The notes under the pieces: model-generated
Told to the model about the DNA's origin: nothing
The model's input: only the letters and a program-made list of their open reading frames with translations
Databases searched by the model: none
Position numbers and translations under genes: made by a program
Shown: piece after piece, positions 10,130 to 53,075 of the stretch
How positions within the stretch are numbered: the stretch's first letter is position 1
Layout: each line of letters begins with the position of its first letter
Source of the DNA: Dysgonomonas sp. Marseille-P4677
GTDB taxonomy: Bacteria; Bacteroidota; Bacteroidia; Bacteroidales; Dysgonomonadaceae
Direction: 5' to 3'
DNA length: 55,950 bases
Assembly (NCBI RefSeq): GCF_016652235.1
Contig: NZ_JAEPKU010000013.1
Coordinates: 1 to 55,950 of the forward strand

Positions 10130-11263
10130 CTATTTAGAGCTTTTCAGCAATCGATTACTTGAATCATATATTTTTATTTTTCCATCTTGTACTATTGTAC
10201 CTGACCATTTGCCTGTCGTATATATTATTTTAGTAGGATCTAATAGACTTCTTAATGTAAGGATATAAGATATATTTGCTCTATATTCAGACACAATGAA
10301 TTCTGCAGTAACTGTATCATAAGGATTGATTTCTTGTTTCATAGTTTCATTAAAGGTTATTTCGTTAGTTAAAATTTTTCCCGTAGTATAACTCCAATTT
10401 GTATTAGTGGTTGTTTCAGTAGTCATATTACCATCTGCAAACAACGGCACCTTAAATCCAAAGCTCGAAGAAACTTTTGTCGTAACAGATAAACCTGTAG
10501 TCTCTTTAAATTCTGATGTATTTTTTACTGTTTCTGTAAAGCTAAATGTTTTTTCAACTTTAGTATCGTACATATTTTCATATGTCATTCTTCTTACAAT
10601 GATAGGCTTAAAATCTAATTTGTCTCCAGCTAATATTTTGTAATCAATATCAATTATCTCATACTCTCCTATTGGAGACATAACCCACTGTTGGCGCGCT
10701 GTTCCTTTATTTTTAAAATGTATTTTGCTTCCTACAGCGGTTAAATATACATCACTCCTATTTGTATAACCTTTTGCTAAACGAATCAAATACCTATCAG
10801 TATTCGATACATTTTCAAAATCAACATTAAACATATATCCTGCTTTCGACATCGCTGCATCGTCAGTAAGATAGGCTACTGTTTGAGTCGGATTGCTCAT
10901 GCATAAATTTCGCCACCCTTTATGATACCCTCCTACTACTTGCAAGTAAAATCCTCTATAGTCACGCTTTATGTACCAACGTTCTCTTCCTGTACCAACA
11001 TCCCGTCCATCGAGTTGAACCTGTCCAGAACTTTGTCTTGCGGCCATAAAACTATTTGTCTCTCCAAATAAAGTTATATTCAAAGGGATGTTGGCTGAAT
11101 ACAATTGAGTAATAAGATCAGGGACATTAGTTGTAACACTACTTTTAGTCTTAGAAACTTCGGAAGCATCAATGTTGTCGCTATTTAGAATATCCTCATT
11201 ACAAGAGGATAACATGAAAAGCGACACAACTAGAAAAATACTAAAAATAAATGAATGTTTCAT
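10130..11263 (-). CDS. Surface lipoprotein: lectin-like domain plus aerolysin/ETX-MTX2-type pore-forming domain
   Basis: 377 residues. The signal peptide ends in a lipobox (FMLSSC, Cys21). The residues after Cys (CNEDILNSD) are acidic, like the Bacteroidetes export signal that places lipoproteins on the cell surface. Residues about 50-200 look like a beta-trefoil lectin, with spaced RERWYI and RQQWVM motifs of the QxW type. Residues about 205-355 have the Ser/Thr-rich alternating-strand pattern of aerolysin-like toxins, with an interrupted hairpin (about 255-285) that would be the membrane-inserting loop. It is the only leftward gene inside the structural operon and has its own terminator, so it is likely lysogenic-conversion cargo. 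Target is unknown: rival bacteria, protists or host cells. The pore-forming call is from pattern, not alignment. Confidence 0.7.
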   Translation of the reverse strand: MKHSFIFSIFLVVSLFMLSSCNEDILNSDNIDASEVSKTKSSVTTNVPDLITQLYSANIPLNITLFGETNSFMAARQSSGQVQLDGRDVGTGRERWYIKRDYRGFYLQVVGGYHKGWRNLCMSNPTQTVAYLTDDAAMSKAGYMFNVDFENVSNTDRYLIRLAKGYTNRSDVYLTAVGSKIHFKNKGTARQQWVMSPIGEYEIIDIDYKILAGDKLDFKPIIVRRMTYENMYDTKVEKTFSFTETVKNTSEFKETTGLSVTTKVSSSFGFKVPLFADGNMTTETTTNTNWSYTTGKILTNEITFNETMKQEINPYDTVTAEFIVSEYRANISYILTLRSLLDPTKIIYTTGKWSGTIVQDGKIKIYDSSNRLLKSSK

Positions 11264-15538: not shown

Positions 15539-15733
15539 ATGAAAATTTGGAAAGTACGAGAAATGATCAACTATGTGGAAGGTGACGATTGGTATCTTGT
15601 AGCACAGAAAGGCAGCCACCGACACTTTAAGCATCCGACAAAGAAAGGCCGTGTCACGATTCCGGGTAAGCTAAGCGATGACTTAGACCCCAACACGGCA
15701 AACAGTATTTTAAGACAAGCAGGGCTGAAATAA
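15539..15733 (+). CDS. hicA: HicA-family mRNA interferase toxin
   Basis: 64 residues, the usual HicA size, with the double-stranded-RNA-binding-like fold. The core motif KGSHRHFKHP (about residues 24-33) holds the conserved catalytic His. It is followed by the typical IPGKLSDDL loop and a C-terminal helix (NSILRQAGLK). HicA cleaves mRNA and blocks growth when unneutralised. An AGAGG stretch sits 3 nt before the ATG. It is co-transcribed with hicB, 24 nt downstream. Its place within the late structural region of a prophage is unusual; plasmid-like stabilisation of the lysogen or anti-phage activity are possible roles. Confidence 0.9.
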   Translation: MKIWKVREMINYVEGDDWYLVAQKGSHRHFKHPTKKGRVTIPGKLSDDLDPNTANSILRQAGLK

Positions 15734-15757
15734 GCCCTGCATAAAACTAAAAGAGCA

Positions 15758-16165
15758 ATGGAAAATATTATTGTAACAGTAGGAATAACAGAAAATAATT
15801 ATTCGGCTAGCGTCGATATAGGCGACGGTATCGCCGTAGCAACAGGCGAAACATTTGATGAATTGAAAAAAGAAATGAAATCGGCAGTAGAATTTCATTT
15901 GGAATGTATGCGCGAAGATGGAGAAGATATACCGGCTCCCTTCGATAAAGACTATGAACTGGTATATAAATTCGATCCGCAAAGTTTATTAACTCATTAT
16001 AAGGGTATATTTACAAATACTGCGCTGCATCGCCTTACAGGTATAAATGAACGTCAGCTGCAGCGTTATGCTTCGGGTGAAAGCAAACCACGTCCGGAAC
16101 AATCTCAAAAAATAGCTAACGCCTTACATAAGTTAGCAGATGAATTGCGAGTTGTGGATCTCTAA
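15758..16165 (+). CDS. hicB: HicB-family antitoxin and repressor
   Basis: 135 residues. The N-terminal half has the HicB partial RNase-H-like fold (IIVTVGITENNYSASV, then GIAVATGETFDELKKEM). The C-terminal third is a XRE-type helix-turn-helix (LTGINERQLQRYASGE). The N-terminal part binds and masks HicA, and the HTH should bind the palindrome at the operon promoter. The gene order hicA-hicB is the common one, and a terminator follows about 35 nt after the stop, so the pair forms a self-contained transcription unit. Confidence 0.9.
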   Translation: MENIIVTVGITENNYSASVDIGDGIAVATGETFDELKKEMKSAVEFHLECMREDGEDIPAPFDKDYELVYKFDPQSLLTHYKGIFTNTALHRLTGINERQLQRYASGESKPRPEQSQKIANALHKLADELRVVDL

Positions 16166-16273: not shown

Positions 16274-16480
16274 AATCTTTGCATCGCGACAATTATTATG
16301 TTTTTTAAACAGCTAGCTGGAATTGCTCCCTATCATTGGGAGCTGTTCCCGCTTTTGATTTTTATGCACTATAGGCGGTTGTCTATCCGTAACATGAAAC
16401 AGCTAGCTGTTCATAATTGTTGTCGCAACGGGTATGGCAACCGCTTTCTTTTGCCATAGTTTTAAATGCGACAACAATGG
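16274..16480 (+). promoter_or_regulatory. Structured leader A: direct-inverted-direct repeat switch
   Basis: A -7-like box AATCTTTG (16274-16281) is followed almost at once by copy D1 (GCGACAATTAT from 16286). The inverted copy I (16416-16427) is perfectly complementary over 12 nt to D3 (TGCGACAACAAT, 16467-16478), which overlaps the ATG at 16477. I can pair with D1 (imperfectly) or D3, so start-codon access could be switched. AAACAGCTAGCTG occurs twice, at 16307-16319 and 16397-16409. GGCGGTTG (16374-16381) can pair with CAACCGC (16438-16444), which competes with a TATGGCA/TGCCATA hairpin (16433-16458). Leader B at 25439-25644 has the same plan. Confidence 0.6.
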
Positions 16481-16596
16481 ATAAAACAGAAGCACAAAGC
16501 CTGCTCGATATTCTCTACAGCGAGAAATCGACACCGGAAGAAAAAGAACTCGCTTATCGCCGCCTATCTGAATTAATTTTGTTACTTTTGGTATAA
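16477..16596 (+). CDS. 39-residue protein, paralogue of the gene at 26096
   Basis: A small, acidic, probably all-helical protein. The central part (SLLDILYSEKSTPEEKELAY) is identical at protein level to the 40-residue protein at 26096-26218, and the DNA differs at only about 4 of 80 positions there. The C-termini diverge (here a Leu-rich end, ILLLLV). There is no signal peptide and no known motif. The start codon lies in repeat D3 of leader A. Retention of both coding frame and leader in two places argues that the protein is expressed. Function unknown. Confidence 0.65.
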   Translation: MDKTEAQSLLDILYSEKSTPEEKELAYRRLSELILLLLV

Positions 16597-25304: not shown

Positions 25305-25359
25305 TTTCCCATCAGAAGTATACCTATAACAAAAGATTTTATATAAAAAAAATAATAAT

Positions 25360-25434
25360 CACGAATAATTATTTCCTGTTCACGAATAATTATTACTATT
25401 TCCCAACATTTTATCTACTTTTTCCATATATTTG
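25360..25434 (+). promoter_or_regulatory. Promoter with two operator-like direct repeats
   Basis: CACGAATAATTATT occurs twice (25360-25373 and 25381-25394), with starts 21 bp apart, so both lie on one face of the helix. TATATTTG at 25427-25434 matches the Bacteroidetes -7 consensus. No clear -33 element is seen, so the promoter may need an activator bound at the repeats. Confidence 0.6.
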
Positions 25435-25438
25435 TAGT

Positions 25439-25644
25439 GTCAAACAATTTATAAGTTAGTGGTAGGCTAAGGTTCTGCCTAATTTTAGGCTTTTTTTATG
25501 CCTGTATTTTAAGATATTTATATAAAGGCGGTTGCCTGTTCCAACATTTTTTCGGTTCTACCGTTAACTTGTAATTGTTTGACGACACGGAACATGGCAG
25601 CCGTTCTTTTTTCTGCCTAAAACGTCAAACAATTACAAGTTATG
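25439..25644 (+). promoter_or_regulatory. Structured leader B: direct-inverted-direct repeat switch with attenuator
   Basis: D1 (25439-25457) lies at the expected transcript 5' end. I (25566-25584) is the exact complement over 19 nt of D3 (CGTCAAACAATTACAAGTT, 25623-25641), which touches the ATG at 25642; D1 differs at only a few positions. A short terminator GCCTA/TAGGC with seven T (25477-25497) competes with an upstream TAGGC at 25463. GGCGGTTGCC (25527-25536) can pair with GGCAGCCG (25596-25603), which competes with GGCAG/CTGCC (25596-25617). The plan matches leader A, although the D/I sequences are unrelated. Confidence 0.62.
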
Positions 25645-25884
25645 AAAACAGAAAAAACAAAAGAAACCACAGAGCTAACCTTAGCAAGGCAAGGAGAATT
25701 ATCCCTTCGGAAAGCTCAGAAAACAGTAAACTTTACACTCAAGGAAATGGCAGCCGGCCAAAAGTTGGATGCACAGATGCACATCGGCGACGGTGAAACT
25801 CTCTTTGTTTTTATTGCGAACGGTATTTGCGCCACACTGCATTTACAGGCATTCGACCCTGTTATGGAAGGAGGTATAGGATGA
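25642..25884 (+). CDS. Small protein of unknown function (80 aa)
   Basis: Begins MKTEKTKETTELTLARQG, very polar and charged, and then turns more hydrophobic (IGDGETLFVFIANGICATLH). Predicted alpha at the N-terminus and beta at the C-terminus, with no signal peptide. The start codon directly follows repeat D3 of leader B, so translation should respond to the leader's fold. It overlaps the next gene by three bases. No family is recognised. Confidence 0.68.
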   Translation: MKTEKTKETTELTLARQGELSLRKAQKTVNFTLKEMAAGQKLDAQMHIGDGETLFVFIANGICATLHLQAFDPVMEGGIG

Positions 25885-26090
25885 GTTCTAGATCAATTCA
25901 ATTATCAGAAAATTCCATTAAGGCATTGAGTTATATTCAACAGAATTATAGTGATGTTATCGATCTGTTTTATCAGTTGGAGTCTTATATTATGAAAATA
26001 GAAAATGAAACAGTACCTGCAGAAGATACTTTACAAGCTATGAGAAATGTGAGAAAGTTGAATGAAATTGTTTCACCTTTAGAATTTTAA
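25881..26090 (+). CDS. Small helical protein (69 aa)
   Basis: An acidic, all-helical prediction: SIKALSYIQQNYSDVIDLFY and a second helix (LQAMRNVRKLNEIVSPLEF). Its start overlaps the stop of the 80-residue gene (ATGA), so the two are translationally coupled. No signal peptide or motif. It is the second gene in the operon of leader B. Size and charge would suit a small regulator or antitoxin-like partner, but nothing in the sequence proves it. Confidence 0.68.
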   Translation: MSSRSIQLSENSIKALSYIQQNYSDVIDLFYQLESYIMKIENETVPAEDTLQAMRNVRKLNEIVSPLEF

Positions 26091-26095
26091 TAACC

Positions 26096-26218
26096 ATGAC
26101 ACAAAGTGAAGCACAAAGTCTGCTCGATATTCTCTACAGTGAGAAATCGACACCCGAAGAAAAAGAACTCGCTTATCGCCGTCTATCAGAGATGATATCA
26201 GTCTTACTACCTGATTAA
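26096..26218 (+). CDS. 40-residue protein, paralogue of the gene at 16477
   Basis: Begins MTQSEAQSLLDILYSEKSTP. It shares about 29 consecutive residues with the 39-residue protein at 16477, with about 95% DNA identity over that part. The differences fall mostly at third codon positions, so selection on protein seems likely. It ends SEMISVLLPD. It is the third gene behind leader B and is followed by a strong terminator. Acidic and helical; function unknown. Confidence 0.65.
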   Translation: MTQSEAQSLLDILYSEKSTPEEKELAYRRLSEMISVLLPD

Positions 26219-26236
26219 AACATATTACGATATTTG

Positions 26237-26267
26237 AAAAGCCGTGCAAATCTGCACGGCTTTTTTT
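26237..26267 (+). terminator. Terminator of the leader B operon
   Basis: AAAAGCCGTGCA (26237-26248) pairs with TGCACGGCTTTT (26253-26264) over 12 bp, loop AATC, in a run of seven T. Confidence 0.9.
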
Positions 26268-35370: not shown

Positions 35371-36547
35371 AAAGCATACCATCATGTTTTATAATTAAAG
35401 GATTCGCTTTAATACGATCTTTCGGTGTATATTTATCGGTCATCTTGATATCTGAATGCCTGGCCTGATCCCTTACAGTCAATACATCATATCGTTGCAA
35501 CATATCTGTAATACCGGTATCCTTTAATGAGTAGAATTGATATCTGTCTGGAAACTTCAGATTCTTACGTACATGGTAAGCCCAGTAATCCGTAAATTGT
35601 TTTTCGTGCTTCCGTTCAGTTCCAGGTCTGAAATCCTTCGAAAACAAATAATAGTGTCCGGGATTATCGAAAATACGAAGTTCTAACATTAAGTGGATGA
35701 TTTTCTCTGGAAGAGTCACTGTTGCACTGTCTCCATTTTTTGCAATTTCTCCCGGAATAAATAACGTTTGATTCTGAATGTTGAAATAAGAGAGCTTCAA
35801 AAGGCTCATTTCTTTACGACGAACAAAACAATAGTGTAGAATATAACAAGCCAGTAAATAATACCGATTCTCTTTAGAGAGATAATCACATAGACGTATG
35901 ATGTCATGTTCATCTATTATTGTTCTCTTTTTCTGTAAACGCTTAGTGCTTATGGGATTTATACCCTCGGACGGCTTTGATTTTAAATACTGTTTATCGA
36001 CAAGGAACTGACTGAAGTTACTTGCAAATAACAGATAGTTATTTCTAGTTACAACGGAGCGTTGGAGTTCTTCATATATATAGTCCAAAAAATCAGAAAT
36101 AAACTCCCTGTTAAACTGATAAATATATTCAATGGGGATGGTTTTGCTTTTATTCCAGTTTTCAATATTCTGCAATTGTGATTTGTAGGACCGATGCGTA
36201 TCCTCTCTAAGTACCCCATCATCCAGGAGTTTCTTGATATATTTGCGGTAATGCTCGCAGGCTTCGGTAAATGTTTTATAAGCCTTTTCGTTTTCCACTT
36301 CAATCCATGGATTCCACCCTTTCTCCAGTTTGACCACAAGCCGCTTCATCAGGCCATCAGCATATTTACGACGGTCGCCAATCTTATCAATATGATTGAG
36401 CTTAATACGTTTTTGACGAAGTTTCTTCATCGCAGGATCGTATGCCCTGAACCCGACATACCACATTTTGCCTGTATAAAGCTTTGGATAAGAAAAGCCC
36501 TTTATTTCTTCTATAGCGGGATTTCCGTTTTTTTGAATTGTATCCAT
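35369..36547 (-). CDS. int: Tyrosine recombinase (phage integrase), variant active site
   Basis: 392 residues. N-terminal arm-binding domain (to about 95), SAM-like core-binding domain (about 95-190) and catalytic domain (200-385). Catalytic residues: Arg243 (FVRRKEMSLL), a Lys near 270, His364 (ARHSDIKMTD) and nucleophile Tyr373 (KYT). The second box, normally HxxR, reads Y339-S-L-K342-D-T, so both the His and the second Arg are replaced. I recall this YSLKDTG form in other Bacteroides phage integrases, so it may be a functional variant. The gene points away from the tRNA-fMet and starts 140 nt from its 3' end, as for tRNA-integrating prophages. Confidence 0.9.
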   Translation of the reverse strand: MDTIQKNGNPAIEEIKGFSYPKLYTGKMWYVGFRAYDPAMKKLRQKRIKLNHIDKIGDRRKYADGLMKRLVVKLEKGWNPWIEVENEKAYKTFTEACEHYRKYIKKLLDDGVLREDTHRSYKSQLQNIENWNKSKTIPIEYIYQFNREFISDFLDYIYEELQRSVVTRNNYLLFASNFSQFLVDKQYLKSKPSEGINPISTKRLQKKRTIIDEHDIIRLCDYLSKENRYYLLACYILHYCFVRRKEMSLLKLSYFNIQNQTLFIPGEIAKNGDSATVTLPEKIIHLMLELRIFDNPGHYYLFSKDFRPGTERKHEKQFTDYWAYHVRKNLKFPDRYQFYSLKDTGITDMLQRYDVLTVRDQARHSDIKMTDKYTPKDRIKANPLIIKHDGML

Positions 36548-52841: not shown

Positions 52842-52849
52842 TATCTTTG
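52842..52849 (+). promoter_or_regulatory. Promoter -7 element before the cobalamin riboswitch
   Basis: TATCTTTG matches TAnnTTTG and places transcription start close to 52856, where the riboswitch begins. Confidence 0.6.
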
Positions 52850-52855
52850 TATCTG

Positions 52856-53075
52856 TTTTGGTGATGCAAACAGATATCCGTCTTTTGCATAAAAGGGAAT
52901 CCGGTCAGAATCCGGAACAGTGCCCGCTACTGTGGTCTTTTTATATTTTGAACATTACTCTTGCCACTGTTTATATTATACAGTTAACTGATAATCGGAA
53001 ACGGGAAGGTGTTCAAAAAACGAAGCTAGTCAGGAAACCTGCCGAACAAAGCACTATTGATCATTATTTCCGGGG
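52856..53075 (+). promoter_or_regulatory. Cobalamin riboswitch
   Basis: The conserved core AAAAGGGAATCCGG (52891-52904) is followed by TCAGAATCCGGAACAGTGCC and CGCTACTGT, the hallmark of B12 aptamers. The B12 box GTCAGGAAACCTGCC is at 53029-53043. Bound cobalamin should reduce expression of the cobQ operon, which begins at 53199. The long stem region between (52935-53010) is AT-rich. No distinct terminator is seen before cobQ, so control of translation initiation is more likely. Confidence 0.95.

Follow-up and report, generated by a model that had tools for sequence, protein, structure and literature searches.

The leader at positions 25439-25644 of the 55,950-nucleotide stretch of Dysgonomonas sp. 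Marseille-P4677 analysed here in full (the window; contig NZ_JAEPKU010000013.1), which we term leader B, is on the evidence of sequence comparison a member of a leader family found in phages and prophages of the Bacteroidales. This comparison gives solid support to the family, to its two rival pairings and to its likeness in design to the C4 region of phage P1. We consider it probable that this leader serves a temperate Bacteroidales phage as a C4-type antisense control region, in which an antisense segment, I, would block translation at a target segment, D3, and an upstream copy of the target, D1, would antagonise I. The direction of the effect of D1, an action in trans and a role in immunity are parts of the model that we infer. 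The window contains a prophage, with a tail tape measure, an amidase and a tyrosine integrase, the last of these on the minus strand (35372-36547) beside a tRNA-Met.

The Bacteroidota -7 box has the consensus TAnnTTTG. Leader B begins directly behind a box of this type, TATATTTG (25427..25434, plus strand, as are all parts of the leader), which by its sequence is the putative leader promoter. Then follow D1, the H hairpin, the 5' strand of the stem P2, an apical hairpin, I, the 3' strand of P2 with a U tract, the 3' strand of P3, D3 and the ATG. The parts listed by an earlier, sequence-only reading (the -7 box, D1, a small hairpin, GC elements, I and D3) were all found in the window. D1 (25439..25458), the upstream target copy and counterpart of P1 a1b1, lies near the presumed 5' end of the transcript, and the adjoining D1b (GGTAG, 25461..25465) lets long D1:I duplexes continue into the 3' strand of the apical hairpin. 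The H hairpin, AGGC-UUUUUUUAU-GCCT (25487..25503), which contains the GGC-U7-AUGCC element, is the small terminator of the earlier reading. P2 consists of GGCGGTTGCC (25527..25536) and GGCAGCCG (25596..25603), the latter with an alternative partner, CTGCC at 25613-25617 (P3). Within the P2 loop lie the apical hairpin CGGTTCTACCG (25553..25563), whose 3' strand can instead pair with D1b, and the antisense segment I (25565..25584), counterpart of a'b' in P1 C4. The U tract after P2 (25604..25612) is predicted as a possible intrinsic terminator, ending a short RNA that bears I. The two GC elements, at first taken for separate motifs, are instead the two strands of this one stem, which encloses I and covaries in relatives.

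D3 (25623..25642), the target segment and counterpart of P1 a2b2, runs into the ATG, and its last base is the A of the start codon. I is the exact complement of D3, as had been claimed, over 20/20 nt and not the 19 nt first given, and it is nearly complementary to D1, again in line with the earlier reading; by sequence comparison, full pairing of I is possible with either D1 or D3 but not with both. I and D3 lie 38 nt apart and make up a perfect inverted repeat of 20 bp. When three mismatches at most are allowed, the 19-nt D3 sequence is present only at D3 and, on the opposite strand, at I, and matches of this kind numbered 0.07 on average in 100 shuffles. Only one of 200 shuffles of the 234-nt leader folds as well or better (z -3.4). 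Directly upstream of the leader B promoter, an exact 15-nt direct repeat, TCACGAATAATTATT, occurs at 25359-25373 and 25380-25394, 21 nt apart, and the 19 nt at 25362-25380 have a 95% complementary counterpart at 15787-15805, which lies upstream of leader A (see below). By analogy with P1 c4, which has a C1 operator according to the P1 record, the repeats upstream of the promoter are possible candidates for operator sites.

A second member of the family, leader A, lies in the same prophage at about 16286-16479 (plus strand) and has the same layout with other arm sequences. Its D1 is located at 16286-16300, P2 at 16374-16383 with 16437-16445, I at 16412-16427, D3 at 16467-16478 and the ATG at 16477; I and D3 match exactly over 12 nt. 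Leader A was recovered by R1, a covariance model of the leader core built from 47 sequences, among which leader A was absent, with an E value of 2.5e-4 in 98.5 kb and of 0.012 in the whole genome (span 16337-16462). An ORF of about 40 aa is common to 16473-16571, directly after leader A, and 26092-26190, the third behind leader B, with 88% identity at the DNA level.

Relatives were collected by DNA similarity, by pattern and by covariance model. Of 199 related genomes searched by DNA, among them that of the window, 15 had matches, some of them short and not leaders. The phage records gave one partial match to leader B and none to leader A. Viral contigs were searched with a pattern that drew only on the U7 element and a portion of P2, and on none of the three arms. 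Among the 115 stretches recovered, 79 had the P2 3' strand, 77 had flanks and 49 were non-redundant. In 39 of these 49 leaders, I and D3 of the same leader match exactly over at least 12 nt, compared with 13 of 2352 swapped pairs (median 16 nt for own and 7 nt for swapped pairs), and I and D1 match exactly over at least 10 nt in 34/49 leaders versus 45/2352 swapped pairs, with an own median of 12 nt; the I:D3 match of L022 reaches 8 nt. The proposal that D1:I and I:D3 compete at the start codon is borne out to the extent that the complementarity is kept in many relatives despite different arm sequences. Among the pattern matches listed from genomes, a repeat of at least 11 nt was present in 26 of 119 stretches, 24 of these in records named as Bacteroidales (with one, L189, unclear); L146 and L185, also among the matches listed, look like chance. 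The listed matches in other phyla were devoid of arms, and none with arms came from outside the phylum of the Bacteroidales.

The covariance search that had been suggested at the outset recovers, with the R1-type model, both leader A and relatives in Bacteroidales genomes: R1 matched 13 of the 101 genomes taken from the family, 11 of the 393 from the order and 1 of the 395 sampled across the phylum, counts which each include the window's own genome, from which the filter for large searches removes weak matches, and in which some matches have less than the full set of arms. L256-L258, relatives by tape measure, gave no good R1 match in the stretch examined (best E 0.67). A leader peptide after D1 was considered and dropped, as by eye it is not general among the leaders. 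The expectation that no named Bacteroidetes RNA family has this form agrees with Rfam, of which no model reaches its cut-off at the leaders tested: leaders A and B gave nothing in Rfam 15 at the curated cut-offs, and the matches near the leaders of 14 loci with relatives are all at chance level, including two that overlap leaders on the opposite strand (mir-315 in L004, E 2.2; L20_leader in L002, E 4.8). A search of the literature, mostly of open-access text, found no report of antisense RNA leaders at antirepressors of Bacteroides or Bacteroidetes prophages.

The scaffold around the arms is supported by covariation. An RNAalifold consensus contains H and P2, the latter with an inner CCC:GGG helix, and 97.3% of the cells of the named pairs are paired compared with 28.6-54.1% in slid versions, with a covariation score of 0.308 versus 0.022-0.148 and 39 cells changed on both sides, values favoured by the fact that the consensus structure came from the same alignment that scored it. 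For the alignments, a length filter reduced 58 leaders to 50, of which 47 were used; in another set, filters left 55, of which 37 were used. The centre pairs of H and P2 are part of the search patterns, and their outer and inner pairs lie outside them. In P2, 97.1% of cells are paired, three of eight pairs have changes on both sides, and the outer and inner pairs covary in relatives; the outer pair of H, outside the search pattern, varies between GC, AU, GU and UA. The H motif is present in 54 of 56 leaders, a count that holds largely by construction because H belongs to the search pattern; of 12 leaders collected through DNA similarity, 10 have it. What had been read as a small terminator is in relatives a hairpin, (A/G)GGC-UUUUUUUAU-GCC(C/T). 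The U7 element was also considered as a general intrinsic terminator and set aside, since pairing with an upstream partner was found in 56/56 leaders and the test therefore says nothing. After P2, the leaders carry on average 6.9 T in 9 nt (54 leaders). The reported -7 box recurs: 25 of 56 leaders have an exact TAnnTTTG at most 42 nt before D1, compared with 23 of 567 control windows. When D1 was searched for without a bonus for the box, the box was still present in 25/56, at a distance of 4-10 nt in 23. These counts of box, H and U tract took in 56 of 58 leaders.

In near-identical leaders, the three arms change in concert while the scaffold stays. Ten near-identical leaders of Prevotella type (9 distinct, L105 being equal to L197) were taken from 15 aligned ones, after removal of two identical to L072 and three divergent ones. 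In this set the arms vary in 27 of 45 columns and the scaffold in 29 of 212 (Fisher p 4e-10, a value that ignores relatedness and the non-independence of paired arms), and the variable columns are spread over D1 (9 of 15), I (10) and D3 (8). Leaders that share a genome or contig also pair preferentially within themselves. In six groups picked by hand, I with its own D3 gave a mean of -26.3 kcal/mol (n=13) and cross pairs one of -11.0 (n=16); the closest cross pair, at -19.5, is stronger than the weakest own pair, at -16.2 (leader A). Orthogonal arms and the U tract after P2 are only suggestive of a separate antisense RNA acting in trans. L262 and L270 lie on the same contig, 17.5 kb apart, with near-identical ORF1 starts, and L270 has a different arm code.

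A divergent branch of the family precedes genes of antirepressor type. The divergent R1 matches L267, L269 and L282 (Bro-N) and L280 (KilA-N) gave rise to a second pattern with 39 matches, of which 27 were read as leaders and 12 judged by eye to be chance. By R1 the two branches are one family, because the model finds nine of nine divergent-branch leaders tested and nothing in the P1 stretch. Among 25 of the 27 first ORFs (L299, a duplicate, and L312, where no ORF was found, being left out), 17 reached a Pfam cut-off: Bro-N in nine, KilA-N in three, AntA in one and Rha in four, three of them alike. Two of the nine Bro-N proteins carry a KilAC antirepressor (ANT) domain. The first ORF of L322 gave a weak Bro-N match, those of L293 and L300 match anti-repressor PHROGs, and those of L292, L298, L304, L305 and the truncated L306 gave no Pfam or PHROG match; the ORF of L290 begins 124 nt behind the pattern and not at D3. 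By analogy with the action of C4 on P1 Ant, the branch before Bro-N, KilA-N, AntA and Rha would likely keep an antirepressor-type gene silent in the lysogen. Here the pairing of I and D3 comes in two blocks, and block b reaches at least 6 nt in 21 of 26 leaders versus 56 of 650 swapped pairs and in none of the 12 chance matches. Duplex energy was rejected as a control, as eight chance matches gave I:D3 values of -11.5 to -33.6 kcal/mol, no weaker than those of the real leaders (mean of -17.0 for own pairs); several chance matches are GC-rich, and exact-block counts were therefore used instead of energies. Ranked by energy, I has its own D3 as the best partner in no more than 7 of 25 leaders. 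L299 was also left out of the pairing counts, and L322 in addition from the energy comparison.

In subfamily 1, at most 10 of 52 first ORFs match any Pfam family at E 0.01, and the ORF1 behind leader B does not, by sequence (Pfam, PHROG), class as an antirepressor. Genes of this kind occur around two leaders of the subfamily, with AntA upstream and KilA-N downstream of L006 and P22_AR_N upstream of L064. ORF1 of leader B (25642..25884, plus strand, 80 aa), the first gene of the operon proposed to be controlled, has no assigned family and no Pfam or PHROG match, and by protein no viral relative of it was confirmed. ORF2 (25881..26090, +, 69 aa; no assigned function) is preceded by GGAGG (25870..25874, +), which overlaps the end of ORF1 and makes translational coupling likely; ORF3 (26096..26218, +, 40 aa) is a copy of the ORF directly behind leader A, and a hairpin formed by an inverted repeat (26237..26264, +) is the likely end of this small operon. 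A GGAGG-N3..9-ATG of the next ORF over the end of ORF1 is present in 33 of 53 first ORFs of the family versus 9 of 448 background ORFs, the latter taken mechanically from the first ATG, and in 0 of 53 cases does a GGAGG-type site precede the ATG of ORF1 itself. Strong GGAGG sites that overlap the preceding stop codon were noted behind the leaders in the window (25870-25884), L004, L005, L011, L018, L025 and others. Because the ORFs appear to be coupled, control at D3 probably extends to the whole operon. The ribosomes of Bacteroidia are reported not to recognise GGAGG-type sites (PMC9976891).

The likeness to P1 c4/ant proved closer than the sequence-only reading had said, as a copy of the target (a1 and b1, annotated as putative) precedes c4 in the P1 record, which gives the order a1, b1, C4, a2, b2, icd, ant1. 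As a positive control, Rfam found C4 (RF01695, 68.8 bits) and c4-a1b1 (RF03163) in P1, and from the annotation and these matches D1, I and D3 correspond in order to a1b1, a'b' and a2b2. As in C4 of P1 and P7, the layout comprises an upstream target copy, an antisense segment in a closed stem, a downstream copy, a small first ORF and a controlled gene. An antisense segment complementary to the start of the first ORF was found in 39/49 leaders and leader B, with the exceptions L266, L281 and L283 elsewhere, and a second target copy upstream of the antisense in 34/49, with the exception L270. The two-block pairing of the divergent branch resembles a and b of P1 C4, and two of the genes presumed to be controlled there code for Bro-N proteins with a KilAC (ANT) domain. 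A hairpin before the antisense part is a further common point: its loop is UUCG in P1, and 12 of 37 leaders have TTCGG within the loop of P2. In contrast to P1 C4, I of subfamily 1 is one continuous block, an extra H hairpin with a U7 loop is present, many of the ORFs presumed to be controlled are small and of no assigned function, and the hosts are Bacteroidales. The C4 clan (RF01695; c4-2, RF02944) gave no match at leaders A and B at the cut-off, nor at the leaders of the 14 loci up to E 5 or 3. A c4-2-like stretch in L004 (2051-2136) scored 28.2 bits against a cut-off of 41; it falls within the second ORF of the leader-bearing operon and outside the leader. According to a review, C4 binds around the ribosome binding site of the ant mRNA and underlies the heteroimmunity of P1 and P7 (PMC12197685), and the c4-a1b1 motif is listed in PMC2864571.

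Two further phage systems, the tested Gifsy-1 IsrK and P4 CI, share aspects of this design, each with an antisense part that has one partner upstream and another downstream, as described in PMC4825925. The CI RNA of P4 pairs with seqA upstream and seqC downstream, causing termination, and as in the leaders an antisense RNA is flanked by upstream and downstream complementary copies in one transcript; P4, as described, uses transcription termination (PMC4825925), whereas here D3 lies on the start codon. In Gifsy-1, the short upstream RNA acts as a trans activator (PMC4825925). Like the IsrK/STnc1160/orf45-anrP arrangement, the leaders would combine a short promoter-proximal RNA, a read-through mRNA with rival folds and a small first ORF to which a gene resembling an anti-repressor is coupled, but in Gifsy-1 the complementary part is described as lying inside orf45 and not in a separate stem ahead of it (PMC4825925). 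No isrK (RF01394) match was reported at the leaders tested (A, B and the 14 loci), and in the a1b1 region of P1 this model scored 35.1 bits, below its cut-off of 50.

In the preferred model, pairing of I with D3 would cover the landing site of the ribosome, in hosts that rarely use Shine-Dalgarno sites, and stop translation of ORF1 and the coupled ORFs. Pairing of D1 with I would leave D3 free and the operon ON. A short I-bearing RNA, whether it arises from termination at the U tract of P2 or from processing, may also act in trans on other copies, the sequence of the arms then serving as an immunity or insulation code. Such a trans-acting arm code would explain both the concerted change of the arms and the differing arms of leaders within one genome. 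A wider form of this idea, which is possible and on balance doubtful, is an RNA 'address' system, where one antisense scaffold would be reused before many operons, not only those of antirepressors, each with its own arm code. The codes would diversify fast, and a prophage would silence the matching leaders of incoming relatives while being blind to others, including its own second leader.

The sign of D1 could also be the reverse of that proposed. By a mechanism like that of P4, I:D1 would itself be the OFF state, as CI with seqA, and favour early termination, I:D3 would be a second OFF state and D1 no antagonist, a reading that we regard as unlikely. It draws on the description of P4 CI pairing with seqA and seqC for termination (PMC4825925), on the U tracts on both the H element and the P2 stem, and on L281 and L283, which have short D1:I matches of 9 and 7 nt and are without I:D3. 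Against it, D3 sits right on the start codon, as would suit control at the level of translation, the short upstream RNA of Gifsy-1 is described as activating in trans (PMC4825925), and L270 retains I:D3 without D1 or H. The behaviour of such exceptions was followed in the 16 R1 matches at E of at most 0.001 outside the training set, 15 of which were tested together. Exact I:D3 matches of at least 11 nt occur in seven of the 15 (L262, L263, L264, L265, L268, L270, L278), and the sixteenth, L261, has 12 nt. Shorter ones are present in L269 (10 nt), L280 (9 nt) and L279 (8 nt; the L009 place), two short blocks were read by eye in L267 and L282, and L281, L283 and the truncated L266 gave no I:D3 match. 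Loss of the complementarity in relatives, named beforehand as what would speak against the switch, arises as an exception in L281 and L283, which match the scaffold model.

Rather less probable is a bistable leader acting in cis only, in which one RNA would switch between D1:I and I:D3 through a protein, a ligand, the ribosome or the kinetics of folding, with no action in trans. The arms do lie in one stretch behind a single promoter box, and the energies of the two folds are close, a balance that also counts for the preferred model: across 57 leaders, compared without a control set, the whole-leader folds with D3 free and with D1 free differ by a median of -0.1 kcal/mol (IQR -2.0 to 2.4), the D3-free fold being lower in 30/57. 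For leader B the values are -51.8 (D3 free) and -54.2 kcal/mol (D1 free), pseudoknots (P2 with I:D3) lying outside the model. Compared as isolated duplexes, D1:I is the more stable of the two pairings in 49 of 50 leaders, ahead of I:D3 by a median of 10.5 kcal/mol, an advantage that is biased because D1 was given the longer stretch (eight of 53 cut-outs with wrong ends were left out and five re-cut). Yet a leader acting in cis only predicts neither the fast concerted change of three arms on a near-fixed scaffold nor the poor cross-pairing between cohabiting leaders, and by eye the leader alignments contain no conserved region resembling a ligand pocket beyond P2 and H. The concerted change could come from the mutation process itself if template switching in replication copied changes between inverted and direct repeats, in which case the match of the arms need not be selected. 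The arms are indeed such repeats close together, and changes often comprise several adjacent bases, but we hold this to be very improbable, as D3 ends at the start codon in the leaders collected, the scaffold helices covary independently, the layout recurs before regulator genes, and in subfamily 1 the match of I to D1 (median 12 nt) falls short of that to D3 (16 nt), which neutral copying does not predict. The reading we find hardest to credit is that of a DNA-level element, such as an origin, a recombination site or an invertible segment, to which the perfect 20-bp inverted repeat with its 38-nt spacer would be suited; against it, a promoter box lies close upstream, G-U pairs occur among the pair types of the helices, and the element has a single orientation that ends in ATG.

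If the C4-type reading is true, antisense control of the C4/CI kind extends to another phylum, and immunity groups of phages in gut and environmental Bacteroidales would be readable from sequence. Many small phage genes to which no function is assigned may then be controlled like antirepressors. The family supplies dozens of natural arm codes with matched partners, usable for tests of specificity.

Other features of the window were noted in passing. A toxin-antitoxin pair similar to HicA/HicB, by PHROG matches, lies at 15539-16162, just upstream of leader A. The protein family ETX_MTX2 has an aerolysin-type fold, and the ORF at 10133-11263 on the minus strand matches it weakly (E 5.7e-4, under the Pfam cut-off). 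A cobalamin riboswitch is located at 52842-53060, probably outside the prophage.
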